From NCBI GenBank assembly GCA_006503475.1, contig RSEH01000131.1, forward strand, positions 62,001 to 126,000: a stretch of DNA of 64,000 nucleotides, in the 5' to 3' direction. Shown here one piece after another: positions 14,112-55,224 of this stretch. The DNA is from Stentor roeselii (Eukaryota; Ciliophora; Heterotrichea; Heterotrichida; Stentoridae). Below the pieces are notes generated by a model. The model was given only the letters and a program-made list of their open reading frames with translations, did not search any database and was not told where the DNA came from. The position numbers were made by a program, and so were the translations under genes. Numbering within the stretch: the first letter of the stretch is position 1; every line of letters begins with the position of its first letter.

Positions 14112-17100
14112 ATGGACAGCAGGTACATAAAAAAGCTTTCAAGAAGGTTCACCTTCAAGTCATCCTCATCAATAACCCAAAAAGATTCAACTTTTACTCC
14201 AACCGACACTACTTCCCACGGTGCAATCTTTGAATACCTTTCCAAATTTCTGAATCCAAAATCAACAAAGCGAAGTTCCTTATTCACGAACTCAACAGAT
14301 CTTCTAAAAAAAGAGACCAGTTCATCACATGCCGAGATTTTCATCATAAGGAAAAACAAGCTAAAACTATGCAGCGGTAGCCAAAACGAGCATATTCTTT
14401 CATTAAACCCAGACGAGAACCTTCCAGCCTACAGCGTGATGACAAAGGAAAAGCTGGTGATAAACAATCCTCATACTTGTTCTTCTTTTCACTTGTTTTC
14501 CGATCCTAGTTTTTCATTCAAACCTTTGGAACTCAAGGACCTGAATGTCTCGAGTTTAGTTTGTCTACCTTTTTATGTAAAAAATAATTAGAACTCAAAA
14601 GGAAGGGTCTACGGCTGCATCCAACTCTTTAATAAACTCGACCAGAACAAGTGTCAGTCCTTTTTCACTGAAAGTGACGCAGATCTGGCTGTTTCGATAG
14701 GATTTTTTATTTCAGAGCTGTTTGAATCAAATTCTTCTTATCGAAAACTTCAGAAAAAAAATAGTAAATTGCAGCAAGTTCTTCAGGATCAGGACTTTTT
14801 ATGTCAAACTGTGAATAGTTTGACGAAGAGGTCGAAAACTCTTGAAAAACTTTTACAGAACCTTGAAGAAAAACCTTTTTTTTGCAAGGATCTTCTGGGG
14901 ATCATGAAAGAAGCCATGCAGTGCAAGAATATCTCAGTTTTTTCTTGCATTAACAACTCAGCTACTCTTGAACTGACCTTATCAAAAGATGAAGAAGCTG
15001 AAGTTTTTAAAGATATTGCTGAGTTTTCTTGCTTTATCTCTAAAAAAACACTGAATATCAAAGATATCACCATGGAGCCTTTATTTAATGGAAAGCAACT
15101 CAGTGAGTGCAATAGTTGCCTCGTAGTTCCTTTCAAGGTAAGGACAGGGCAACAGTTCGTGGTGATTTACAAAAGGGAAAAAAAAGAGTTTTCTAACCTC
15201 GACCTTGACTTTTCAGACAGACTAACCTCGAAATTTTCTCAATATTCTCAACTTTTTCCTGCATCAAAAGTGAAATTTTACCATTTGGACCTTAGCCAGC
15301 TCTATGAAAATTTCGAAAAATTTTCAATTCCTGTCACTTCAAGCACTTTCGACTTTTACCAGCTTTTCAGCTCGATTAAGGAAGTTTTGATTCAGTTTCT
15401 GTCTTTAAACTCTTGTAGCATCTACGTCGCTGATCATAGGACTAACCAGCTTTGGACTAAAAATTCGAACTCGTCGAGTAGCTTGTTTTTTCCTTTTTCA
15501 GAGAAGACGTTGATTGGTTACTGTTATTTGAACCGGCAGATAGTGTTTTTGCCGTCTTCAGTTTCAGAGATTATCAATGATCTTGAAGCTTTTCATGGAA
15601 AAAAAGTCCTGGCTGCCCCGATTTTATCAGATTTCTTTGAAAATACGGTTTTAGGAGTCATTCTTTGCATTAGGACAAATGCTGAGTTTTCTAGTTATGA
15701 CCTTGATTTTTTGACTTTTTATATGCAGAGCATTGCGAGGTTGCTTGAAGGTATTTACTCGTTTCATATCAGGGCAGATGACGAGGAACCTTTAGTTTCG
15801 CCAAGATATGTAAGCAGCTTGGTTAGTCCTAAAAGCTTGTTTCGAGAAATCAACTTGAGAAACAGTGAAAGAAGATTTTCAAATGAAAAAAAAATTGAAG
15901 AGTTCCTAGAATGTCAAGAAAAGGTCTTAGATTTACTTTTTTGTGAAAGTGAAATTTTCAATCTTTGTAAAAATATCTTGAAAGGTATCGACCCTGCTTT
16001 AAGACATCATCTTTTTTTTCGTGAACTTGAGAAAAGCTTGAAATGTGAAAAAATTAACGTTTCTTTGATTCAAGACTCGAATTTCTCTTTGTTTAACGTT
16101 GAAACAGATGAAGTGATCCAGTCAAACGAGGTGATTTCAAACAGCTTAACTAAAAGAGAGCCATTTTTCCATGAAATAACTGAAAAAGACGTGAATGCCT
16201 CTCCAGATTTACTGAATTTCTTAGGATGTGCTTCAGAGTTAAAAAACGTTTACTTCATTCCAATGCTAAACTCTTCCAACTCCCCCATCGGCCTGGTGAC
16301 CCTCTGCAACTTCTCATCAATCCCAAGTCACTCTTTTCTAACAGAGCTAAAAATCCTCAGCACTCTTTCCGGCCTCCTCTTTTCAAACCAAGAGCCAAAA
16401 ATCTGGCAGGCGATAAACGAGTCAAAGTCTTTAAACTTCAAATTCAACCAATGGTCAAAAGTCCTTTACCAAGTTGGAAAGTTTTGTATTTCAAACTTGA
16501 TTCATATAAAAACCTTGACTCTTTCATCATTCAAATCATCGTCATTTGAAGAGGTCTTGAAGAACATGATGCAGGCTTTTGCCTGCATGACTAATTGCAC
16601 CGAGTCAGTCTTGAAGATAACGAACGAGTCTCATTCCCTGAAAGTTTCAACAAGTTCTTTCACTTCCCCTCTTCCAGTGAAAACACTTATTCGACTGAAG
16701 TCAGATTTAATCGCTCAAAAGACAATCAAGATCAGGGAAGAGACTGATTTTGAACTTCGAATTCCTATCAAGCTGAAAAACGTGACAGGTCTTTTAAAGG
16801 TCAGAAACTCGCATAAGGCTCTAGGCTCTGACTATGTTAATGACACGATTCCTGTCGTTTCTGATATAAAAATTATCTGCGCGGAAATAGCGGAGAAGTT
16901 TTTGAGGTATCCTGGAGTTTTTAATGATGATATCAGCGATTTGGTGGATTCTATGAAAATTTTCGCTTTGAAGTATAAACCGACTTCTTTTTATATTAGT
17001 GTTCAGAAGGCTACTTGTTGCTTAGTTGACTGTGAACATGCGATTTTTTGCTTGAAAAAAGGGGAAAAAATTGTAATTCCGCAGCAGAAATGTGATTTGG

Positions 17101-19073
17101 ATATCCCTGATGATTATGTTTTAGAGAAAAAAGAAGGAATGATTTTTTCTGTGCTTGAATCGGGAAATCCTTTGATTGTGGATGATGTTTATTTGGATGA
17201 AAGGTTTAATACGAAACTTGATAAACTTACTGGGTATCGAACTTCGAATGTTTTGATTACTCCTTTGATTTATAATTCAAGGAGAATTGGAACTATTAAG
17301 GCTATTAATAAGAAGGAAGGTGAATTTAGTCAAAATGATTTGCAGGTCATGCATAACTTGTCGGAAAGTATTTGTCTTACTTTAGATCTTATTGAAAATA
17401 TTCAGGCTTCGTTTGAGGAAAGGTCTAGATTGGCTGCTATTATGAATTCGATGGATAAACATGTCATTGTTTTAAATGATCTGGGGTCACTTGTTTATTC
17501 AAGCAAACCGACTGAGAGCTTGTTTAGACTTCCCTTTGATAGTATCCAAAAAACCAACTATTCCGAATGGGTTCCATACCCAGAGTTAAAATCCGACCTA
17601 GCATCAGTCTTAGAAAATCCTAAAACCACTCTTCAAAAATACTCTCAACAGCTAAAAAACTTCTCAGAAGACGAGAGATTAAAACCAGTGAATTACTCAA
17701 TTTCCCAAATCGCATTTTTTTCCTCAGAGTGTTACTTCGGCGTGATCCTAGTAATAGAAGACTCTCTTCTAATAGACCGTCTTTACAACGAGTTGCGTCA
17801 CGTGAGGAACAGCGTCGTGAGTTTAACATCTCCAATCTCAGGAGAGACAAAATTACAAAAGACAATCCAAGAGTTAAGAATGGTAAAATTCCACGTAAAA
17901 GACCCAGAACTAAACAGTCGTCTAGACCAAATCATTTACGGCCTTCAAGAAGGAAACTTGACGACTCCGAAGTTGATAGTTGATAAAAACGATGCAAGTA
18001 TCGATGCACTTACCTCAATTCTAGAAATGCCGAATGAGCTCTTTCAAGTCAAGTCCGCCTCGACTTTTGGCGACCTTGACGACTTGCTTGATGTGGGAAC
18101 CGCGGTTTCTTTGGATGAACTTCGAAACTGGGACTTGAACCCTTTTCAGCTGGAGAATCACTTCGAGTACATCATGACCATGATGAAGGACTTTGACTTG
18201 GTAAGCAATTACAAAATCGACCCAGTCGTTTTAATGACTTTTTTAAGCAAGGTGAAGGAAAAGTACTCGTATTGGAAGAATTCTTTTCATAACTTCATGC
18301 ATGGCTTTAATGTTATGCATGGGTGTTATATGCTGCTTTCTAGTACTCCTGCTGGAAACTATTTTTCTTCTCATCAGATTCTTGCTCTTCTTATCGCTTC
18401 GCTTTGTCATGACCTTGACCATCGCGGAAGGACTAACGTCTTCGAGGTCAATAAAAGAAGTGTCATTGCGAATACTTATCATGACGAAAGTGTCTTGGAA
18501 AAACATCATGCTGCTGTGGCTTTTTTTATCATTAATGAGGAAAATTCGAATATTTTCGCGAAACTTAATAATGAAACTTATATGGCTGTCAGAAAACTTA
18601 TGATTAGCTCAATTTTAGCTACTGATATGGCTAAACATCTTGGAATTATTGAAGAAGCTAAAAATAGGTTCTTGGAAATTGAAAGTAAAAGAATGGGAAG
18701 TTTGGAAAATGATGTGGAAAAGTTGTCTGGACTTATTATGCATTGTGCGGATTTGTTTCATCCTTGTAAGTCTTACCAGGTTTATGAGATTTGGTCGATA
18801 CTTGTTTGTAAGGAGTTTACTGATCAGTATAATGAGGAGGTGGAACTTAATATACCTGTTACTAGTTATTTTAAGGACTTGGATAAGCCTTTGGTTTATT
18901 ATTCGAATGAAATTGGGTTTTTAGGGTATATTGTTAAACCGCTTTGGATGTGTCTAAAGAATTTTTTGGCTCCATGCATCGATAAGGTCATCGAAAACCT
19001 AGAAAATAACATCGAAATCATGAAGAGGAAAAAAGAAGTCTGGGGAAAAGTTGAAGCTAATGAGAAAGAATAA
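14112..19073 (+). CDS. Giant multi-GAF, PAS-containing cyclic-nucleotide phosphodiesterase, one intron
   Basis: A 1648-residue protein after removing the intron at 14577-14591. It carries a chain of GAF-like domains. The clearest are near residues 60-220, 240-400, 430-570, 650-780 and 930-1090; a weaker one lies near 810-930. A PAS-like domain (about 1095-1210) follows, then the class I phosphodiesterase domain (about 1340-1640) with NSFHNFMHGFNVMHG, the signature CHDLDHRGRTN and MHCADLFHPC. Animal GAF phosphodiesterases (PDE2, 5, 6, 10, 11) have two GAFs. GAF domains bind cyclic nucleotides, so strong allosteric control is likely. The splice restores NSKGRVYGCIQLFNK, a typical GAF core. Exact GAF borders are estimates. 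Confidence 0.9.
14577..14591 (+). other. Intron of the multi-GAF phosphodiesterase, 15 nt
   Basis: GTAAAAAATAATTAG with an in-frame TAG. Removal completes the first GAF domain. Confidence 0.95.
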
Positions 19074-39777: not shown

Positions 39778-41679
39778 ATGGAAGCCAAGGCAAAAGACTC
39801 AGAATTTCCAGACTCAACTCAAGACTCCGGTATTCCCGAAGTTCTAAACCCGACCACAGCGAGTACATCAGACCCAGTGAAGCTTTTTTCAATATACTCC
39901 CCTGATCAAATTTCCGTAAACACCGACTACATCTGCGTGGCTTCAGCGAACACATTAAAAGTGATAAAAAACTCAATCGAGGAGTTTAAGTTATTCACTT
40001 TCAAATCTCCAATAAAGTCTTTAGAAATAAGCAAAGTTTGTGACAACGTGATTCTTCACCTGGAAAACGTGGGATTTTCAGTGCTTGAAATCGAAACTGA
40101 CCAGCAACAAGACTACCCAAAAGACTGGCCAATCCAAACAATGCGATGGAACAACTGGTCAGGTGACAAGTTCGGGATCTACACAACTGAAGACTCTTTA
40201 GAACTGTTCTCCAAGTCTTTGACCCTTCTTCAAAAGATCGATTTAAAAAACTTGTCTATTTTCGAGTTCTCCGGTCCGAATTCTTTCATTTTCCAAGATT
40301 CAGACTTGAAATGCAAGATTTTCAACTTTTCAGAATCTTCTTGTCAGACAGTAGAAACAGGACGTTCTGAGAAGTTACAGAAAGTTTTTCCTTTAGATGA
40401 AGAAAAGTTCGCTTTTCAATTTAACGACAGTATTTTAGTTCTAAGTCTCGCTTCTGGACCTTTGTTCACTCTAGGTCTAAAGCAGATTTTTGAATTTGAC
40501 CTTCGCAGTGAATTTGTTTATTTCGCCAATCCTGGCTCGTTGCAGGTCTTGATCATTTCAAAGGATAACTTTTTAGCGCAACGGTATCAAGACTGCCTGG
40601 CTTACTTCACTTTGATGGAGTCTTGCAGTTCTTTGTTCGTCAGGAAAAAAGCGGACAAGCCTCAGGTAGTCGCTCGACATGGAGACGACGTCTTTTTTTA
40701 CACCTTTAAAAACGAGGCGCAAGCCGAGGAACCCTTGCAGGAGATAAAGGAAGGAAAAGTGACAGGGAAAAAAAATGAAAAAACTCCTGCGAAAAGTCTT
40801 AATCCAAAAGAAATTATTGCTCCTGTCGTCGCTGCCTTGAACCGCGGCATGGACGAGGTTGTGAAAAAAGTAGAAAAAACAGTTTCTCCACATTCTTTGA
40901 ATAATGTCGTCACGAAGACCATTCAAAGCACCCTTGAGCAGAAGTACGACTCGACAGGGCAGAAGAACATGGTTCAAAGTACTTTAGCACAATCTCTTAG
41001 GTTTGAATTCCAGTCAACGCTTATACCGCTCATTCAACAGCAGCTTAATGAGAACTTCAACAAGTTATCCGTGATTTTTCAGGAGTCTCTTAAAAACTCT
41101 TCTGATTTTAACAACCGCTCTGCTGCCAAAGCGACTTCTTTGGAAGTTCATATGAAAAACGCTATTGAAAACATCGTGAATACCACTAACAAATTGGAAA
41201 AAGAGTATAATAATCAAGTCAAGAAAATCAATGAGTCTGAAGTTAGACTTAGTGAAAGCTTTGAGCCTAAAAGACATGAAGAACTCGTCTTGCCTAGAAC
41301 TAGTGACTCGAAAACGGAAAATTTGAAAAGGGAAATCGATCAGAAACTTAAAAGTCTTGATTTTGAAGGAGCTGTCAGCGCTGTCTTAAGGGAAAAAAAT
41401 GTGGCTTTGTTGTTTAAGGTCTTGGAAGTCATTAATCCTAAAAGTCTTTGTGGATCTAGGATTATTAGAGAACCGCTTTTAAAACAACTTTTTTATGAAT
41501 TGATTGAAAATGTTGAAAGGGATGGAGAGTTTAGGGATTATTACTTGTGGATTGAAGAAATTGTCAAAAATATGAATTTGAAGGAAGAGGCTACTCAACT
41601 TATTGTCAAACTTTTCAATATTTCGGAGAAAAAACCGAGGATTAGGGAGATTATCAAAATTGTTACTGCCAAGATTTAG
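39778..41679 (+). CDS. EDC4-like decapping scaffold
   Basis: A 633-residue protein. Residues about 30-320 form a degenerate beta-propeller. A charged linker follows (320-350), then a helical region (about 350-500) with PVVAALNRGMDEVVKK and FEFQSTLIPLIQQQLNENF, and a C-terminal helical-repeat domain (REIDQKLKSLDFEGAVSAVL). Propeller, amphipathic helices acting on LIP-type ends, and an alpha-helical C-domain is the order in EDC4/Varicose, which links DCP2 to activators in mRNA decapping. The match is by architecture and local pattern; animal EDC4 is about twice as long. Another WD40-helical protein is possible. Confidence 0.6.
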   Translation: MEAKAKDSEFPDSTQDSGIPEVLNPTTASTSDPVKLFSIYSPDQISVNTDYICVASANTLKVIKNSIEEFKLFTFKSPIKSLEISKVCDNVILHLENVGFSVLEIETDQQQDYPKDWPIQTMRWNNWSGDKFGIYTTEDSLELFSKSLTLLQKIDLKNLSIFEFSGPNSFIFQDSDLKCKIFNFSESSCQTVETGRSEKLQKVFPLDEEKFAFQFNDSILVLSLASGPLFTLGLKQIFEFDLRSEFVYFANPGSLQVLIISKDNFLAQRYQDCLAYFTLMESCSSLFVRKKADKPQVVARHGDDVFFYTFKNEAQAEEPLQEIKEGKVTGKKNEKTPAKSLNPKEIIAPVVAALNRGMDEVVKKVEKTVSPHSLNNVVTKTIQSTLEQKYDSTGQKNMVQSTLAQSLRFEFQSTLIPLIQQQLNENFNKLSVIFQESLKNSSDFNNRSAAKATSLEVHMKNAIENIVNTTNKLEKEYNNQVKKINESEVRLSESFEPKRHEELVLPRTSDSKTENLKREIDQKLKSLDFEGAVSAVLREKNVALLFKVLEVINPKSLCGSRIIREPLLKQLFYELIENVERDGEFRDYYLWIEEIVKNMNLKEEATQLIVKLFNISEKKPRIREIIKIVTAKI

Positions 41680-41695
41680 TGAATAGTAGTAATAA

Positions 41696-44600
41696 ATGGT
41701 TGATACCCTGGTTAAAAGCTATTCATCAGGAGTAATCTACCCCCAACCAAACATAATCGATCCTCAAACCTTATCCCTCGAGATGAAGTCAATCGAAGAC
41801 CTGTTTAAAATGATAACAAAATCCGAGAATCCTCCATTCTCTTCATACAACCCTGAAAGTGTAATCCAATGCATGGCCCTGAGTCCAGACGAAATTTATT
41901 TAATAACAGGAAGCATGTCAGGCGAAATCCAAATCTGGAACACTCATTCCTTTCTAACCCCTCCAAAGACCTGGAGCTTCAATTCCCCAATAAAAACCCT
42001 GCTAATTGAAGGTTTCACAATCTACGCAGGAACCGATTCAGGAAAAGTCCTAAAATGGGATTTCGTGAAAAACACCCAATCTTCCTTTCGAGACATAAAG
42101 TCTTCAATTAACACCCTGGCGATTTTACCTGACAAGTCCCTTGCCTTGGGTTCAGCACTTTTTGAACTGGAGATCTGGGCAGAGGGTCCGAAGCCGATAA
42201 GAGGAGAAGGCCATGAAGACGAAATAACTTGCATGAAAATCGGGAAAGAAAGGCGAATTTTCACTGCAAGTGCTGATAGGAGTCTTCGCGTCTGGGACTA
42301 CTGCGACGGGCTGCTCGACCAGCTGAGGTTCAACGAAGAGGTGCATAAGGACGGCATCATCTGCATGGAGATACTTGAAAATACTTTAGTCACTGGGGAC
42401 CATGGCGGGTTACTTGTTGTGTGGAACCAGGAAGACATTGAGTGTCTTTCGAAGATTCATATGAAAGACCCTTTAGAGTGCTTTTGTAAAAGTGTTGATA
42501 ACAGGTACTTGTTCATCACCACGGAAGATACTGAAAGTCGGAAGATTTTAATACTTAATATGCAAAATGTCACTGAAAAGCCTTTAGCAATAAAACGTGC
42601 ACATAAGGCAGGGATAAAGACAATTATTTACCTTAACTCAACAAGTCAACTAGTTTCAACCAGTGAAGACAAAAACATGAAAATCTGGAACTTCAGTAAA
42701 CCTGTCAATGAAAGTCCTTTTTTAACCAGCAAAAATATCGACAGCTTTGCCTTAGCCGGTCAAAATTTAGTTTTCAGTCAAAACGGTTCGATTTTCTTTT
42801 TAAACATGGAGACCCGCGAGATCAGCAAGTCCTTAGACGCCCCGATGAAGATAAAAAAGCTGAGAATGGGTCCAGAGAACGAGACTTTCGCTCATAATTC
42901 AGATGAAAACGTTTTATATGTATGGAGAAAAGGGTACCGAGAGCCAAGCTGGAAATTTCAACACCCAATGGAAATCACCAGCATTGAGTACCTCGACAAG
43001 CACTCAGTCATCACCGGGTGCAACGACAGACTTGTAAGAATCTGGAGTCTTGTCTTTGACAGGGTCGATAAAGAGTTTTCTATTGAAAAACCGATAACTG
43101 CCGTCAAGTTCAGCTTGAAGTACTTCTACGTCGCTGGAAACGATGGCATTATTCGTGTTCACAGACGTGTTGACCACAGTGAAAAAAGTCGCCTGGAATA
43201 CCAGAGCCAGGTTTATTCAGTTGATTGTGACTTGGAGGACTTAGTCGTTGCAGGAGGCCAAAGCGGCCATTTGAAACTCTGGAGATGGAAAAAACAAGGG
43301 AAAAAAATAAAACCTGTTGTTTTAGAAGGACATAAAGAAGCAATTACGAAAGTTGTTCTGAAAGGTTGTTTGGTTTTTACATCTGATTTCGGAAATACTT
43401 TAAAGATCTGGTCTTCTACCCTGTCGTTGTTGTACTATTCATTGAAACTTGGAGTTGACTTCTTGGACTACCAAGTCACCCCAGATGACTCTGAGCTTTT
43501 TTTCTTATCGATTCAAGGAATTCACAGTTTGCAGAACCCAATAAAATACGAAGACCCGATTGTTTACCCTTCTCAATACTCCTGGATTTTCATCAAATAT
43601 CTGCAGAAACTTTTTGCAAACAAATCTAAAGTATTCGACCCGTATTGGAAAGAGTACATTATTTACCCTCATGTCGTCAACCTGCTCTATGTTCTCATCA
43701 AAGCCAATCACCCAGACCTGCTAAAACAAGCCATCACTCAAGGAGTCAAGTTCATGCAAGACCGAAACGGTGAGAGTCCTTTGTCAGTCGCTCTTTCCTG
43801 GAAGAACTATCATTGCGCTGATGTCATTTTAAGGACTTTAGCTAAGATCAAGCTGAAAAAAGAATTCGGTATCATCGATTGCATTGAAAAATGTATGAAT
43901 AAATTAATCAGTAGCAACTTGTCACAACTTCCGAAGTTCTTTGATTCGGTTTTTCCTGTTAAAACTAGTGGAATGGTCGTTTATGCCAAGATGCTGAGTA
44001 AAGCTCCGATGATCTTAGAGAAGAAAAACTTTAAGATGTATGAAAATGATTTTGTGATGAAGGACTCTGAGACTAAAGAACAGGTCTTGTTTCGAGCTAG
44101 TGTCTTGAAGTTCAACTTTGAAGTCGGGTCGTTTAACAGTCTGATGCTTTTAAGAGCCATTCGACATTCGAGTAACGCTGAATTATTCAGGACTGATCTT
44201 CTGAAATCAATAGTCAAGTATAAATGGACCAAGGTATATTGGATACTCTTAGGAGAAGCGGTTGTCTTTTTCATGATGATTGCTGGAGTGTCTTATTTTA
44301 CCATGACTCAAGCAGGGGGTTATTTTAGTCTGAGTCTTTTGCTGTTTTTAAACCTTTTAACCACGATAAGAGAAACTATTCAACTTGTGGAGTCTCCTCG
44401 AAAGTACTTTAAAGATATTTGGAATCTCGTCGATATTTCCAGGATTCTAGGAACCTACGTGTTTGTTTATCTTAAAGTTTTTCAGGTACAGCTGGTCTTT
44501 TTAAACCAGGTTCTCACAGCGCTTTACTGGGCACGAGCAGTGACTTACTTCCGCATTTCAGACAAGACTCGATACCTAATCCGTATGATAAGTGAGACTT

Positions 44601-45244
44601 TTCTAGACATAATCCCTTTTTTACTGATATTTTTCTCATCTACTGTAACATTTGCTCTTTTATTTTACATTTCAACTGATTCCGACCACTTTTCCTCAAC
44701 TTTTGTTTACTCTTACCAGCTGAACTTCAATGATTTTTCTGGTTTGATGCCGAGTGGGTACTCTGAAAACTTTTCTTTAACCTTTTGGACGATTTTCTTC
44801 TTAGCGAGCATCATGAACCCGATAATTCTGCTGAATATGCTCATCGCCATCATGAGCGATACTTATGATCGAGTCCAGGAAGACCAGATCGTCGCTGATT
44901 GCAAAGAAATGGCTGGAATGATCATGCAAGTCGAAAGCATGATGTTTTGGAGAAGGCATCTCAATAAAACCTCTTTTATACAAAGATGCGACTATGTCAG
45001 GGACTTGAGGTCGGGCGATAATGAATGGGTCGGAAAAATCAGGGCTATTAAAAAAAGCATTTCGAGACTTCAGGTCAAGGTCAAGGGAAATGATAGGAAA
45101 TTGGAAAGAATGCAGGGAAAAATTGGAATGAAAATCAAAGAAATCAAAAGTATTAATGAACAAATCGCGAAAAAAATTAGTGAACTTGAAGGAGTCAATC
45201 AGGGACCTGGGTCGGTTAATAGTTTTGTCAGTACTTTTGAATAA
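41696..45244 (+). CDS. WD40-ankyrin-TRP cation channel fusion
   Basis: A 1182-residue protein. Residues about 60-640 form WD40 repeats, probably two propellers (ITGSMSGEIQIWNTH, FTASADRSLRVWDYCD, VSTSEDKNMKIWNFS, ITGCNDRLVRIWS, VAGGQSGHLKLWRW). Residues about 670-725 look like ankyrin repeats (DLLKQAITQGVKF, GESPLSVALSW). From about 845 to 1055 there are six transmembrane helices with a pore loop before the last; the last helix and TRP-box-like end read LLNMLIAIMSDTYDRVQE, a hallmark of TRPV/TRPA-like channels. A coiled coil (1110-1170) closes the protein. It should be a cation channel gated through a large cytosolic propeller. The ATG is 16 bases after the preceding stop. Confidence 0.85.
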   Translation: MVDTLVKSYSSGVIYPQPNIIDPQTLSLEMKSIEDLFKMITKSENPPFSSYNPESVIQCMALSPDEIYLITGSMSGEIQIWNTHSFLTPPKTWSFNSPIKTLLIEGFTIYAGTDSGKVLKWDFVKNTQSSFRDIKSSINTLAILPDKSLALGSALFELEIWAEGPKPIRGEGHEDEITCMKIGKERRIFTASADRSLRVWDYCDGLLDQLRFNEEVHKDGIICMEILENTLVTGDHGGLLVVWNQEDIECLSKIHMKDPLECFCKSVDNRYLFITTEDTESRKILILNMQNVTEKPLAIKRAHKAGIKTIIYLNSTSQLVSTSEDKNMKIWNFSKPVNESPFLTSKNIDSFALAGQNLVFSQNGSIFFLNMETREISKSLDAPMKIKKLRMGPENETFAHNSDENVLYVWRKGYREPSWKFQHPMEITSIEYLDKHSVITGCNDRLVRIWSLVFDRVDKEFSIEKPITAVKFSLKYFYVAGNDGIIRVHRRVDHSEKSRLEYQSQVYSVDCDLEDLVVAGGQSGHLKLWRWKKQGKKIKPVVLEGHKEAITKVVLKGCLVFTSDFGNTLKIWSSTLSLLYYSLKLGVDFLDYQVTPDDSELFFLSIQGIHSLQNPIKYEDPIVYPSQYSWIFIKYLQKLFANKSKVFDPYWKEYIIYPHVVNLLYVLIKANHPDLLKQAITQGVKFMQDRNGESPLSVALSWKNYHCADVILRTLAKIKLKKEFGIIDCIEKCMNKLISSNLSQLPKFFDSVFPVKTSGMVVYAKMLSKAPMILEKKNFKMYENDFVMKDSETKEQVLFRASVLKFNFEVGSFNSLMLLRAIRHSSNAELFRTDLLKSIVKYKWTKVYWILLGEAVVFFMMIAGVSYFTMTQAGGYFSLSLLLFLNLLTTIRETIQLVESPRKYFKDIWNLVDISRILGTYVFVYLKVFQVQLVFLNQVLTALYWARAVTYFRISDKTRYLIRMISETFLDIIPFLLIFFSSTVTFALLFYISTDSDHFSSTFVYSYQLNFNDFSGLMPSGYSENFSLTFWTIFFLASIMNPIILLNMLIAIMSDTYDRVQEDQIVADCKEMAGMIMQVESMMFWRRHLNKTSFIQRCDYVRDLRSGDNEWVGKIRAIKKSISRLQVKVKGNDRKLERMQGKIGMKIKEIKSINEQIAKKISELEGVNQGPGSVNSFVSTFE

Positions 45245-45509: not shown

Positions 45510-46799
45510 TTAAATTTTAAAGATGTGTAACAATCCAGCCCGATCCCCAGCGAACATTAACGAAAGTTCCTCATCAAACTGTAAACAACTAAAACTTCCC
45601 TGAACGACAATTTTTCCAAATGAAGAAATCCCATCACCAGCAGTCCAAAGCATTCCACGAGCCTTAACAATATCCTTAACCCTTTCAATTTTAACAATAT
45701 CCAAATACTGCAAGTTCCTCAAATCCCATTTCTAAATATTTCTTACTCTCATTTCACAGTCATTCACTGTCCAAAGTGAATTTTCATCCCAAGGCTTTAC
45801 AATATTAAAGTTTCCATTACTTGAAACCACAGAAGCCGACTTGCAACACCTGACATCCCAAACTTTGCAGTCTTTTCCAGCAGTGCAAAGCAAGGAACTT
45901 CCTAATGTTGACAAATGTTTTACTTTTTCGTGGTATTCGTTCACTGCTCGTTGGTCTTGCCAGATCTTCACTGTTTCATTCCCTGTGAATAAAAAGGAAT
46001 CGTTTGAGGCGAGACCGAAAACTCCTCCGCTGTGGGCTGGACATTGAAAAATGCAATCGTTTTTCCAGTATTTTAATTTGCCGTCTTTTCCACTGGAAAC
46101 TAGAAGGTCTTTGAATGGGCAAAGACGAGTCACGGCTCTTGTGTGGCCTAGGGTCTCGAAGACTTTGTTCATGTTGAATAGGTCTAGACCGAAAATTTTG
46201 TAGTCTAGGCCTGCGGTGTAGACCTTTCCTGAGTGGATTGCTAGACTGCTCATCGAGTTCAGGTGTAGGCTGTACTTTTCTAACGGAAACAGCAAGGGAT
46301 TTGAATGAATCGATGTCGTGTCAGAAGAGCGAAGTTCAGGAATCGGTGACTTTGTAAGTCTGAAGTACTTTTTTTGACTAATTCCAGCTTTTCTCTTCTT
46401 TTTCACCTTGGAAGACTTGACTGGGTGTATCAAAGACTTAAAGTCAAGACTTGAAGAGGGTCGTTTCGAATAAGACAAAGTGCGAATGTTGTCCAAAGAC
46501 CGTTCTTTCATTGAGGAGTCAATGCAGCTTTTGATTAAAGACTGCGGAACTGATTCAGGATCATTAAAACAAGCAGTTTGTTTCAGATCTTTCGGTGAAC
46601 TCGAAACTTTTATATGAAAATATCTCACTTTTTCAGGAACTGGCTTCTGTGAAAAGTGCGGAACTGGAGTAGATGACTTGAATTTAATTGAAGTTCTGCA
46701 TTTCATGCAGAACGTGTCATGGTTTCTTACTTTTGCTTTGCAAATAAAACAAGGAACCGGTTTTTTTAATCTGGAGAAAAGAGAGTCGCGAGAATTCAT
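45510..46799 (-). CDS. WD40-repeat protein with N-terminal zinc-ribbon-like motif, one intron
   Basis: A 424-residue protein after removing the intron at 45732-45746. The first 40 residues hold two CxxC pairs (CFICKAKV and CMKC) like a zinc ribbon. A basic, Ser-rich linker follows to about 170. Residues about 180-424 form a WD40 propeller (VYTAGLDYKIFGLDLFN, LVSSGKDGKLKYWK, FTGNETVKIWQD, LCTAGKDCKVWDVRC). The splice joins CEMR to KWDLRNLQYLD, completing a repeat. Function unknown; WD40 proteins act as scaffolds. Confidence 0.85.
45732..45746 (-). other. Intron of the WD40 gene, 15 nt
   Basis: On the minus strand it reads GTAAGAAATATTTAG with an in-frame TAG. Removal restores the WD40 blade ending. 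Confidence 0.95.
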
Positions 46800-47060: not shown

Positions 47061-48035
47061 ATGGAGCCAGTCAGTCCTTTATCACCCTTGCATCCTCCAG
47101 AGTCAGCAAGAATGTCTCCCTGTCGCACAGCAGGTTCCTTCTCCTGCCAAGGTCTTCTTCCAGCTCCTCAAGTGACAGCGAGTGCATGGTCGATATTCGA
47201 CATGTCAACAAACGAGTTCTTATGGGGTAAAAACAGTGAAGTGGCCTCAGACATTGCGAGTTTAACTAAAATGATGACTTGTTACCTTGTGAACCACTGC
47301 ATAAAGCAAAGCCTGATAACTGACCAGGACCAAATCACTGTCCCCAGAGAAGCCACAACGTTAGGAGGGACCACGGCCTACCTCCGCGCAGGGGATCATT
47401 TAAAAGTCATTGACCTGCTCTACGCGATGATGCTTCCCAGCGGGAACGACGCAGCTTTCGCCCTCGCTGACCACTGCGGGGCTGTTCTTCTTAACCGCTG
47501 CAGTAAAGACAAGGGAAAGTACTCGAGTTCTGCCTACTTCGTCAAACATATGAACATCGCAAGTCGGAAAATCGGACTCAAAGCGACAAAGTTCTTCAAC
47601 CCGCATGGACTCAGTCATCTAGGCAACACCTCCACCGCCATGGGCATTGGAAGACTTGCCACGCAACTCATGAAAAAACCTTTGGTTTGCAAAGTTGTCG
47701 CAACTGTCAGGTACTCTTGTGAAGTTGTTAATAAAGGACTGGCTAGGAAGATGATTTGGATTAATACCAACTTGTTACTTGGGAAAAATGGAGTCACTGG
47801 ATTGAAGACTGGATCAACGAATACTGCTGGACCTTGTCTTTGTGCAACTTTTTGTATTGGAGGACATCAACTTGCCGTCACGCTTTTTAAGTCGAGAACT
47901 CCTGAAAAGAGGTGGCAGGAAGCTTTGAGACTTGCGCATTGGGCTGGTAATCAACTTGATATTATTCAGAAAAAACTCAGTGATAACAAAATTAGGGTCA
48001 AAAACTTGTCGAATTTGATGAATACTTTTGATTAA
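47061..48035 (+). CDS. Bacterial-type D-alanyl-D-alanine carboxypeptidase (peptidase S11, PBP5/DacA-like)
   Basis: A 324-residue protein with all three active-site motifs of penicillin-binding D-Ala-D-Ala carboxypeptidases: S67-L-T-K70 (SLTKMMT), S127-G-N129 and K249-T-G251. PHGLSHLGNTSTA also matches the family. The bacterial enzyme trims peptidoglycan stem peptides. Ciliates lack peptidoglycan, so the gene was probably acquired from bacteria. It lacks the C-terminal membrane-anchor domain of DacA and an obvious signal peptide. Its middle part is richer in G+C than the neighbours, but the start context and flanking genes are ciliate-like, so it is not contamination. Its role might be digestion of food bacteria or some new peptidase function. 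Confidence 0.9.
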   Translation: MEPVSPLSPLHPPESARMSPCRTAGSFSCQGLLPAPQVTASAWSIFDMSTNEFLWGKNSEVASDIASLTKMMTCYLVNHCIKQSLITDQDQITVPREATTLGGTTAYLRAGDHLKVIDLLYAMMLPSGNDAAFALADHCGAVLLNRCSKDKGKYSSSAYFVKHMNIASRKIGLKATKFFNPHGLSHLGNTSTAMGIGRLATQLMKKPLVCKVVATVRYSCEVVNKGLARKMIWINTNLLLGKNGVTGLKTGSTNTAGPCLCATFCIGGHQLAVTLFKSRTPEKRWQEALRLAHWAGNQLDIIQKKLSDNKIRVKNLSNLMNTFD

Positions 48036-49569: not shown

Positions 49570-52515
49570 ATGATTTTATTATTATTTCCTATATTTTTTA
49601 AGGAAATTAATGCCCAACAACGATTGAATCGTTTGGATAAAAACCTCAGGACTCATGGAAAGATTGAAAAATGCTGCCAGTTTGCGAATTGCTCGAATAT
49701 TGGAAATGGAATTTGTGATTTTGAATTGTTCAACCAGGACTGTCTTTGGGATCTGGAAGACTGTAAAAAATGTCCTGATTTCTGCAATTTTGAGGTTTTG
49801 GAGAATGGCGTTTGTGATGAAAAATGCTTTTCTGATGGCTGCTTTTTTGATGTGAAAGATTGTCGAAATCGGAAAATGATTCAGATGGATTCTCTTGATG
49901 ATGATGTGGTATTTTTCATGGTTAATGGGAAAAATATCAGTGTTTCTAAGTTCATGGAAAGTAATTTTGAGATTTTGAAGTTTGATAATATTGAGTACTT
50001 GAAAGGGTTTATTAAATATACAGAAGACCGCCAGTTTAAATCTTGTGATATTGAAATATCTGGGTACCTTCTCATTCGAGATTTAACAGTGGAAGCTTCT
50101 GTGTTAAAAGACTTTAAAATTTCAATTAATACTTCAGGAACTATCGAACTTCAAAACTTTAAAATCATTGGAGAGTATTCGTTAAAAACTTCTTTAAAAA
50201 ACCAAAGCGCAAAGATTCATTATTTAAACAATAAAAAAAAAGGTGCTTCTAATATCCTGAATTTAAAAGTTTCATCAAATTCAAGCAATTCCAAGCTCTT
50301 GCAATTTAATGAGTCTTCATCAACATCAAATTTATTCCAAGTGAACAGCGGGAGTTTAAACATCTCGAATTTCAACTCCTCCATTCAAAGCGAATTCCAA
50401 GTCTTATCAAAATCAAGTGAAATTTCAATAAACTCATCTTTTCTCGAATCTCCTTTCTTTTCCCTTGATTCATCATCGTTATTCATCAACTCCTCATTTT
50501 TAAACTCATCAAAAAGAGTTTTTTCCTTAGAAAAGTCTTCAGCGTCAGTCCTGGATTCAATTTTCAGCAGCTGTTCAGACCTGCAGAGTCCTCAGAGCAA
50601 GTCCTCGAAACTCGAGTTGATCGGAACTTTGAATCTCGAATGTTCCAACGAGAACTTACAGCACATTGACCATTTAGTTGTTTCCGCTGATTGGCCTTCG
50701 AATTCTTCCTTTAGTTTCATTAAAAACTGCTCTGACGGTCAAATGGATGCATTTGGTTGTACTTCATGTCCAGATAACTACTACCGATTTAAACACATGT
50801 CTCATAAAATGTGCTTCAAATGCACAGATTCAATGAAATGTGAAAAAGGAATGATCTGGCCCAAGGACACTTTTTTTAGAATAGAGGAAAAAGACTACAC
50901 TCAAGTCTTCAGGCCTTGTCCCAACTCGAATGCTTGCAAGTTTAACAAAAGCATTAATTCGACTGAATGTCGAGAAGGCTACTGTGGAAGACTTTGCGCG
51001 AACTGCAAGAAAGGCTATGATAATTCCGGAAGATTTGAATGCAGCGATTGTCCAGATTCAATTTCAAATATTTTCGTGATCCTGGTGGCAGTTTTCTTGG
51101 TCTCTTCTTTTATCATCTACCTAATTAAGTCAACAGTACTTGCCGCCTTCATGCCTTCAGAGTTCTACGCGATAGCTTTGAGAATAGGAATAAATTACTT
51201 TCAAGTGATTTACCTTTGCCTGCAATTTAAGATAAAATGGCCTGGAAACAGTAAAAAGGACCAAACTCAACAAAACTCAGACGTGGCAGGGGAGTCAACG
51301 CTTTACTTTTCAATAAAATGTCTGCTGGACGATTCTTTAGAAGCGTCAGGTTATGATTATTTCTACATCAAAATCGCATTCATGGCCTTGCTTCCAATAA
51401 TCATCTTTTCCTTCTCTTTAGCCTACCTGGCAGTGTTGAAGCTTTACAAGAATCTTCGGGATCATAAAGTGAGTCTTTCTATTTACAAGCCGATAACGTA
51501 TACAGTGCCTTTTCTGTTGATTTACCCTTACGTCATCACTTATTCCTTGTTGCCCCTCGCCTGCAACAACCTGGTGCAGGACAAGCCGGAGTACTTCGAT
51601 GAAGAGGTGGACTTGACGAGTTATCGTTATTTAATCGGATACCCTGACATCCTCTGCACTTGGGACGGGCACTACAGGAAAATAGTCTGGGTAACTGGCT
51701 TTTCCATCATCATTTGGGGCTTAGGGGTACCTATTTTTATCTTTTACAAGTTGTACCAAAAGAGGAAAAACTTGTTTAAATATCAAGTCAAATACACCTT
51801 CGGGTTCCTGATCAACGGGTATAAACATGATAGGTTCTACTGGGAGTTCATCATTTTCTTTAAAAAACTTGTCATTGTTTTTTTAACTGTTTTCATGCAG
51901 TCAGGATTTAGCATTACCCTGCAGTCGGTTCTGCTTATTACCTTTCTTATTGCTGGGTTTATTTTACAGCTTCATTTCAAACCGTATATCACTGAACAAC
52001 TGAATAATTTAGAAATCTTTGGATCGGTGGCTGCGATTGTCACTGTCCTCTCAGCTATTATTTATTCAGAGACTTTCGAGAAAAGTCGGGTTTTGATTGT
52101 TTTTTTGATTCTGGTCATCGCTCTTGTTAATATTTTTTATATTTTGTACTGGGCTAGCTTCTTGTCTAAAGAGTTTTATTCTTACTTGCTGTTGAATATC
52201 GAGTATCTCAAGAAAAGGTTCTTGAAAACTGATGGATTTGGAGATATTTCAAAAGAATGGGATAAATTGAACTTTGTTTATTATAAAGAATTTCAGAAAC
52301 TTTATACACAGATAGAATTTGATCTCAATCCTCCTCCTAGTTATTTAGGTGAAAGTCCTAGCTATTTATTACTTTTGAAGAAAATTGTTGAGTCTGATTA
52401 TCAGGCTTATACTGAAAATCGCTTGCCGAAATATGAACCTTATTATAGAAAGTTGAGTGTTAAAATGCCGAGCATTAGTGAAATTAGAAGGAATTTAATT
52501 AGTTTGAAGATTTAG
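49570..52515 (+). CDS. LNR-containing, cysteine-rich polytopic membrane protein
   Basis: A 981-residue protein with a signal peptide (MILLLFPIFFKEINA). Residues about 35-100 hold two LNR (Notch/Lin-12) units (CSNIGNGICDFELFNQDC, DGCFFDVKDC). A Ser/Asn-rich, beta-helix-like ectodomain follows, then a cysteine-rich module at about 385-495 (CTSCPDNYYRF, CKKGYDNSGRFECSDC). From about 500 to 880 there are some eight transmembrane helices, and the last 100 residues are cytosolic. Large surface proteins of this layout are expanded in ciliates, with no known ligand. The start follows CTTTATA. Confidence 0.8.
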   Translation: MILLLFPIFFKEINAQQRLNRLDKNLRTHGKIEKCCQFANCSNIGNGICDFELFNQDCLWDLEDCKKCPDFCNFEVLENGVCDEKCFSDGCFFDVKDCRNRKMIQMDSLDDDVVFFMVNGKNISVSKFMESNFEILKFDNIEYLKGFIKYTEDRQFKSCDIEISGYLLIRDLTVEASVLKDFKISINTSGTIELQNFKIIGEYSLKTSLKNQSAKIHYLNNKKKGASNILNLKVSSNSSNSKLLQFNESSSTSNLFQVNSGSLNISNFNSSIQSEFQVLSKSSEISINSSFLESPFFSLDSSSLFINSSFLNSSKRVFSLEKSSASVLDSIFSSCSDLQSPQSKSSKLELIGTLNLECSNENLQHIDHLVVSADWPSNSSFSFIKNCSDGQMDAFGCTSCPDNYYRFKHMSHKMCFKCTDSMKCEKGMIWPKDTFFRIEEKDYTQVFRPCPNSNACKFNKSINSTECREGYCGRLCANCKKGYDNSGRFECSDCPDSISNIFVILVAVFLVSSFIIYLIKSTVLAAFMPSEFYAIALRIGINYFQVIYLCLQFKIKWPGNSKKDQTQQNSDVAGESTLYFSIKCLLDDSLEASGYDYFYIKIAFMALLPIIIFSFSLAYLAVLKLYKNLRDHKVSLSIYKPITYTVPFLLIYPYVITYSLLPLACNNLVQDKPEYFDEEVDLTSYRYLIGYPDILCTWDGHYRKIVWVTGFSIIIWGLGVPIFIFYKLYQKRKNLFKYQVKYTFGFLINGYKHDRFYWEFIIFFKKLVIVFLTVFMQSGFSITLQSVLLITFLIAGFILQLHFKPYITEQLNNLEIFGSVAAIVTVLSAIIYSETFEKSRVLIVFLILVIALVNIFYILYWASFLSKEFYSYLLLNIEYLKKRFLKTDGFGDISKEWDKLNFVYYKEFQKLYTQIEFDLNPPPSYLGESPSYLLLLKKIVESDYQAYTENRLPKYEPYYRKLSVKMPSISEIRRNLISLKI

Positions 52516-54495: not shown

Positions 54496-55224
54496 ATGCT
54501 GGTTCTCATTCTTATTTCTCTCTCACTAGCCTGCCAAGAAATCAACTACACAACAGGAGCAATTTGGGAAAGCTCATGCTCAGGAGGTCTCCAATCACCG
54601 ATATCAATCGAGTCATTCAATAAATCAAAGCACTACCTAATAACAAGCTACTCTTCCCAAACCAACGTCTCAGCAGAAGACTGCCCAGCCTCCTACAAGA
54701 TCCTGGCAAACAAAGGAAAGCTTTACAGCAAAGACTTCGAAGGCCGAACTTTGGTCTCCTCTCTTTCCGAGATTCATTTCCATTCACCAAGCGAGCACCA
54801 GATATCAAACAAGTCATTCGATTTAGAAATCCAGTTAATCCACTCAATTCTTTCAGAATCTTCCTACAAAAAACTAGGAATGTCTCTTTTCTTCAACTCC
54901 TCCTTACAAGACGCAGGTTTTTTCAGTCAGTTTATTTCAAACGCGAGTCTTTTAGAGTTGATTCCATCATTTTCCCTGTCCTCTCTGATTGACTCTAATT
55001 TTCTATTCTCTCTTTACTTTTTATACGAAGGGGCAATGACGACTCCTCCATGTGAAGGTCCAGTTTTGTGGTACTTGGTGAATCGGGAATTCGGAATTTC
55101 AATTGACGATCTGCAAGTGTTTAATTCGAAGTGGTCTGACAACTCTACATTCGCAGGGGGCAAGGGAAACAACCGAGAAGTCCAAGATTTGAACGGCCGG
55201 GCAGTTCAATATAGCTCATCTTAA
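54496..55224 (+). CDS. Secreted alpha-carbonic anhydrase-like protein with one zinc ligand replaced
   Basis: A 242-residue protein with a signal peptide (MLVLILISLSLACQ). It has family landmarks: GLQSPISI, EIHFHSPSEHQI with the first two zinc histidines (H94 and H96), and EGAMTTPPCEGPVLWYL with the active-site threonine. The third zinc ligand should be the first His of the ELHLVH motif; here that segment reads EIQLIH, giving Q113. Carbonic anhydrase-related proteins of animals lost activity through similar changes, so this one is probably inactive or weak. Potential N-glycosylation sites fit secretion. The gene is convergent with the next, with four bases between stops. Confidence 0.85.
   Translation: MLVLILISLSLACQEINYTTGAIWESSCSGGLQSPISIESFNKSKHYLITSYSSQTNVSAEDCPASYKILANKGKLYSKDFEGRTLVSSLSEIHFHSPSEHQISNKSFDLEIQLIHSILSESSYKKLGMSLFFNSSLQDAGFFSQFISNASLLELIPSFSLSSLIDSNFLFSLYFLYEGAMTTPPCEGPVLWYLVNREFGISIDDLQVFNSKWSDNSTFAGGKGNNREVQDLNGRAVQYSSS

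Follow-up and report, generated by a model that had tools for sequence, protein, structure and literature searches.

TRP channels are commonly distinguished by their N-terminal modules, which are ankyrin repeats or, at the N-terminus of TRPM channels, TRPM homology regions, and polycystins carry a large extracellular domain between the first two membrane helices, S1 and S2. For human TRPM2, the available part of the published text gives E843, Q846, N869, D872, and E1073 as the Ca2+ ligands (PMC6759353). The available part of a further source describes a green-algal TRP channel, ADF1/TRP15, that aligns with no metazoan TRP clade, WD40 repeats that in the green alga belong to FAP16, a protein other than the channel, and a general role of WD40 domains in protein–protein interaction (PMC5068960). 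In the open-licence literature on the topic, as far as its text was available, we found no description of a WD40-TRP fusion, most subscription papers lying outside this scope, and the open-licence literature on Stentor and channels names no WD40-TRP channel within the same limits. Public domain tables may already list ciliate proteins with both WD40 and Ion_trans domains; for a large WD40-TRP family we state that we found no description, which is not a claim that none exists.

Here we describe a gene of this kind in a 64,000-nucleotide stretch of Stentor roeselii DNA, referred to as the window (contig RSEH01000131.1, positions 62,001 to 126,000, assembly GCA_006503475.1). The WD40-ANK-TRP fusion at positions 41696–45244 is real and more than a product of chance, because propellers and channel half share one open reading frame, in the same layout, in the window and in 38 paralogs.

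Domain order of the fusion gene

The gene lies on the plus strand (41696–45244), as do all of its features given below, and consists of a single open frame of 1182 aa from ATG to TAA. A sequence-only reading of this DNA had proposed one uninterrupted frame joining a double WD40 propeller, ankyrin-like repeats, a six-helix TRP-type pore, and a coiled coil, and the frame was borne out to the exact start and stop. From N- to C-terminus, it encodes 14 WD-type units and a weak ankyrin-like stretch, followed by a TRP-type channel with six helices and a tail that resembles a coiled coil. A scan for introns of the 15–16-nt GT(A/G)A...TAG form, which is blind to other intron forms, returned a single match at 44592, located inside the conserved S4–S5 stretch, where the family alignment is free of insertions.

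The WD-type units were recognised by eye and then positioned by script between residues 57 and 612, with starts 38–46 residues apart, and the Pfam WD40 model matches the window protein at E 5.1e-28 (96.7 bits against a cut-off of 27). Both observations agree with the double propeller proposed earlier, and the 14 units fit two seven-bladed propellers, with units 1–7 forming the putative first (residues 57–331, 41864–42688) and units 8–14 the putative second (residues 348–612, 42737–43531). A microtubule-type (EML) identity of the propeller was considered and dropped, the EML_2 model scoring 91.1 against a cut-off of 90 amid many generic propeller models. Structure prediction of the full protein, which the sequence-only reading had suggested as a check, was run on the single sequence and gave an unusable model (mean pLDDT 37), so that the TRP pore is supported by the profile described below instead of by a model. 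Residues 45–345 predicted alone were likewise too poor for use (mean pLDDT 43). The first two blades appear as beta strands (block pLDDT 66–77) within an otherwise poor single-sequence model, which is too poor to show a closed propeller.

In place of the TRPM homology regions of TRPM channels, the family has WD40 propellers. A TRPM model is absent among the matches listed for the window protein (25 of 33 Pfam rows), in which residues 57–612 are occupied by WD-type units, and no TRPM model occurs in the complete Pfam list for residues 625–1150, which comprises four families. The ankyrin-like repeats of the sequence-only reading held up in part: a short stretch is present (residues 663–718, 43682–43849), but it is weak, with Ank_2 below its cut-off in the window protein (E 0.0094) and at E ≤ 0.1 in nine of the 39 family members. 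The best PDB match of the family profile is an ankyrin chain (7.9e-25), a score that sums many repeats; the match covers one or two ankyrin repeats, and single stretches are weak, the best i-Evalue seen being 0.13, in NOMPC. The ankyrin part is the weakest claim in the domain reading. Unlike TRPV channels and IAV, the family has one or two weak ankyrin-like repeats only, with WD40 propellers in front of them.

Several neighbouring genes in the window were annotated as well. The stop codon of the gene upstream (39778–41679, plus strand) is separated from the channel ATG by 16 bp (41680–41695), a spacing that was considered as a sign of a shared transcript and not retained; for the 633-aa protein encoded upstream, Pfam gave no match at cut-off and the PDB a single match at chance level. 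Downstream, a minus-strand gene (45510–46799) appears WD40-like by eye and consists of two frames split by a 15-nt intron-like GTAAGAAATATTTAG. Tiny introns and the standard code are typical of Stentor. A plus-strand gene at 47061–48035 encodes a D-alanyl-D-alanine carboxypeptidase (Peptidase_S11, E 2.2e-46), a bacterial-type cell-wall enzyme that was possibly acquired by horizontal transfer. Further plus-strand genes encode a cyclic-nucleotide phosphodiesterase of 1434 aa that contains GAF domains (14769–19073; PDEase_I, E 5.7e-70), a 981-aa protein that by eye shows several hydrophobic stretches along with cysteine-rich repeats and has no Pfam match at E ≤ 1e-4 (49570–52515), and a carbonic anhydrase of eukaryotic type (54496–55224; E 4.7e-23).

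The channel half and its candidate Ca2+ site

Pfam Ion_trans matches the window protein at E 2.7e-12 (46.8 bits against a curated cut-off of 25). Searched alone against PDB chains, the protein retrieves IAV as best match of its channel half (E 3.5e-4), followed by PKD2L1 (1e-3) and by 6pw4, a ‘TRP-like ion channel’ that we take to be Chlamydomonas TRP1, with E-values ranging to 6e-3 and alignments mainly over S5–S6. A profile of the membrane part built from 39 members yielded 112 PDB matches at E ≤ 1e-10, and those listed, the best 60 of the 112, are TRP-superfamily chains throughout. TRPM2 chanzyme (E 5e-17 to 7e-17) and TRPV3 (2e-16) are followed by TRPM8, 6pw4 (8e-15), IAV, TRPV2, TRPV4, TRPM5, and PKD2L1, and profile positions 24–270 align to TRPV3 422–707. 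The PKD_channel model matches weakly in eight of the 39 members. Homology over S1–S6 places the channel half in the TRP superfamily, an assignment for which the window sequence alone is weak (3.5e-4 at best); the TRP-type pore of the earlier reading is upheld by the profile together with the Ion_trans match.

Hydropathy peaks at residues 847–865, about 870–898, 908–946, 972–990, and 1033–1051, with S3 and S4 not cleanly separated, are consistent with six helices, S5 and S6 being joined by a pore loop. A pre-S1 segment (44213–44233) surrounds W844, which is present in all 39 members and aligned with the KWKKF of TRPV3 before S1. It precedes predicted S1 (residues 847–865, 44234–44290) and S2 (about residues 873–898, 44312–44389), the latter placed by hydropathy and conservation and containing E893 and Q896. 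S3 and S4, with putative limits from hydropathy and conservation (44423–44575), include the conserved R947, R953, and R959. Predicted S5 (residues 972–990, 44609–44665) was placed by hydropathy and S6 (residues 1033–1051, 44792–44848) by hydropathy, the profile, and the IAV and PKD2L1 alignments. W844, N910, R959, and F975 are invariant in the family. Since S1 (847–865) and S2 (about 873 on) are only a few residues apart, the family lacks the large S1–S2 extracellular domain found in polycystins, with which it otherwise shares, in the alignment to PKD2L1, E, N, and D in S2–S3 and the end of S6. With TRPV3 it shares the pre-S1 W, S1–S6, and the post-S6 E, but in the alignment the N and D of the family's S3 are not common to TRPV3. 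The stretch after S6, a candidate TRP helix or box, aligns with TRPM2 chanzyme and TRPV3 in the profile alignment, and near position 1078 an E is found in 36 of the 39 members and a Q in the window. The C-terminal tail (44972–45193) has a 3.5-residue hydrophobic periodicity (p 0.005 in the window; p < 0.05 in 31/39 members), in line with the coiled coil proposed earlier; it appears coiled-coil-like and might contribute to assembly.

Resemblance to TRPM2-type channels (TRPM2 chanzyme, TRPM8, TRPM5) goes beyond the best profile match at E 7e-17, since the positions of the Ca2+ site are likewise occupied by E, Q, N, and D. In the alignment to TRPM2 chanzyme, the chanzyme site corresponds to E893, Q896, N910, and D913 (44372–44434), and we infer that the chanzyme residues occupy the same positions as the human TRPM2 ligands, the fifth of which, E1073, has no assigned counterpart in the family alignment. 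E893 is conserved in 38, Q896 in 32, N910 in 39, and D913 in 38 of the 39 members, with the full set in 31, window included. Among 283 alignment columns, E893, N910, and D913 rank within the six least variable and Q896 41st. PKD2L1 has E, E, N, and D at the aligned positions, so that E, N, and D are common to it and the family, and a TRPM-specific reading of the site was softened on this account. A candidate TRPM-type arrangement of E/Q in S2 and N/D in S3 is thus present but not TRPM-specific, and because E, N, and D also align in PKD2L1, conservation of the four residues is no proof of Ca2+ binding.

The pore loop with the candidate selectivity filter (44702–44749, aligned with the IAV pore) reads LNFNDF in the window, where the family has LNLG-(D/N/G)-F with G in 33 of 39 members, and the window filter is followed by extra residues. 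The pore loop of TRPM2 chanzyme, in turn, is ~17 residues longer. The N in place of the common G and the extra residues could indicate a six-helix protein that does not conduct and acts as a scaffold or pseudo-channel. In L002, the window's nearest relative, the S2 site no longer has its usual E and Q (NKND), another point in favour of such a protein. L002 is one of eight members out of 39 without a complete EQND set, a count that weighs against the Ca2+ site. Against a non-conducting protein stand the alignment of S5, S6, and pore with IAV and PKD2L1 and the higher conservation of the channel half compared with the propeller half; we consider a non-conducting protein improbable.

A paralog family and the inheritance of its two halves

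A search with the window protein of the assembly to which the window belongs (44.4 Mb in 522 contigs) gave 39 scored loci, window included, each of them one long open frame; eight were read from longer fetches (L040–L047, replacing L025–L030, L009, and L010). Twenty-one frames are 5'-complete in the fetched DNA, 19 of them 1146–1241 aa long and two 1626 and 1746 aa, and the other 18 run off its 5' end, leaving propeller halves incomplete in all half-versus-half comparisons. The frames end in TAA (23), TAG (15), or TGA (1). At least one propeller model is matched by all 39 members, the WD40 model at E ≤ 0.001 by 37, and Ion_trans at E ≤ 0.1 by 36, three not being recognised.

With the window-protein query and five channel-half queries, the last of which added none, related channel halves were found at 135 or more places in the assembly. 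This number is the union of the searches with places merged within 1500 bases, of which only 43 were read as proteins; some places may be gene fragments and several have internal stops, and the count is a lower bound because each search scored the best candidates only. Four extra members, chosen among the longer frames (2263, 1285, 1316, and 1315 aa), all match WD40-type models, and in each of the 39 aligned and four extra members the propeller-model matches lie in the channel's own frame. Among the matches listed for the 2263-aa member, the best WD40-type stretches fall between residues 37 and 1647. Locus L049 holds a partial second member of 566 aa, which was left out of the domain scan. No relatives were found in a viral contig collection searched with the membrane-part profile (71 pattern matches, 0 confirmed) or in prokaryote genome contigs searched with the window's channel half (15 pattern matches, 0 confirmed). 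Other ion-channel genes in the assembly give at least 162 Ion_trans matches; among the matches listed, the strongest occur four per frame in frames of 1416–1859 aa, as in four-domain channels.

Trees of the propeller and channel halves of the 39 members have 19 of 36 splits in common, whereas none of 500 shuffles of the labels gave more than 3, so that the fusion is old and was inherited as a unit; the remaining 17 splits are discordant. The window pairs with L002 in both half-trees (support 1.0), the nearest neighbour is identical for both halves in 28 of the 39 members, and the distances in the two halves correlate at 0.37, a value reached in none of 2000 permutations (highest 0.25). Recent duplicates L031 and L034, located on different contigs and ~90% identical in each half, are the only pair in which dN/dS was measurable for both halves; in two other pairs, synonymous sites were saturated in one half or both. 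The ratios of 0.175 (propeller) and 0.134 (channel) indicate that both halves are under purifying selection in this pair. These results also bear on a reading in which two adjacent genes, or a mis-assembly, were taken for one frame. Gene boundaries are tight here, the channel gene starting 16 bp past another gene, but both halves lie in one open frame in the window and 38 paralogs, the half-trees share splits, and selection acts on both halves in one pair, which leaves this reading highly improbable. The earlier reading had opposed the fusion to two separate mRNAs; what was found at the DNA level is a single frame with co-inherited halves and, in one pair, purifying selection.

Mean identity is 18% among propeller halves and 27% among channel halves, and the lower propeller conservation, with 18 of the 39 propeller halves incomplete, may reflect weak constraint and not a diversity of partners.

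Proposed mechanism and its main rival

We favour, as moderately probable, a Ca2+-dependent cation channel of the TRP superfamily to which a cytosolic double WD40 propeller is fused that docks the channel to partners. Four subunits would assemble around the S5–S6 pore, aided by the tail, a proposal made because of homology to TRP channels. Cytosolic Ca2+ at the S2–S3 site would modulate opening, as the alignment suggests, and the propellers, via the ankyrin-like linker, might tether every channel to a cytosolic or cortical partner of its own and so place or gate it there, in keeping with the general role of WD40 domains. The sequence-only reading had suggested that a propeller could link the channel to signalling proteins or to the cytoskeleton, which it found attractive in a cell that contracts and senses touch or force. 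The many paralogs with divergent propellers could then serve different partners or sites.

The main rival to docking takes the propeller itself as the sensor, so that a ligand, or the pull of microtubules or cortical filaments, would open the pore directly and the family would be a diversified receptor repertoire, not a set of targeted, commonly gated channels. The lower identity of the propeller half (18% against 27%), the range of members from two propellers to the 2263-aa frame with WD40-type stretches over residues 37–1647, and the 135 or more places in the assembly speak for a sensor, but the low identity is explicable by relaxed constraint and the microtubule-related EML model reaches only its cut-off (91.1 against 90) among many generic WD40 matches. 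We rate a sensing propeller as possible, if unlikely, and keep docking as the preferred account.

Speculative and doubtful in our estimate is a receptor-like repertoire numbering well above one hundred TRP channels, in which variable stacks of two or more WD40 propellers act as the sensor, joined to a Ca2+-sensing channel. If such a repertoire were true, a single cell could tell apart many inputs, whether mechanical, cytoskeletal, or chemical, and the family would be the unicellular equivalent of large sensory-receptor families. With WD40 propellers where other TRP channels commonly have ankyrin repeats or TRPM homology regions, a large family of this kind would represent a new means of connecting TRP channels to the cell interior.
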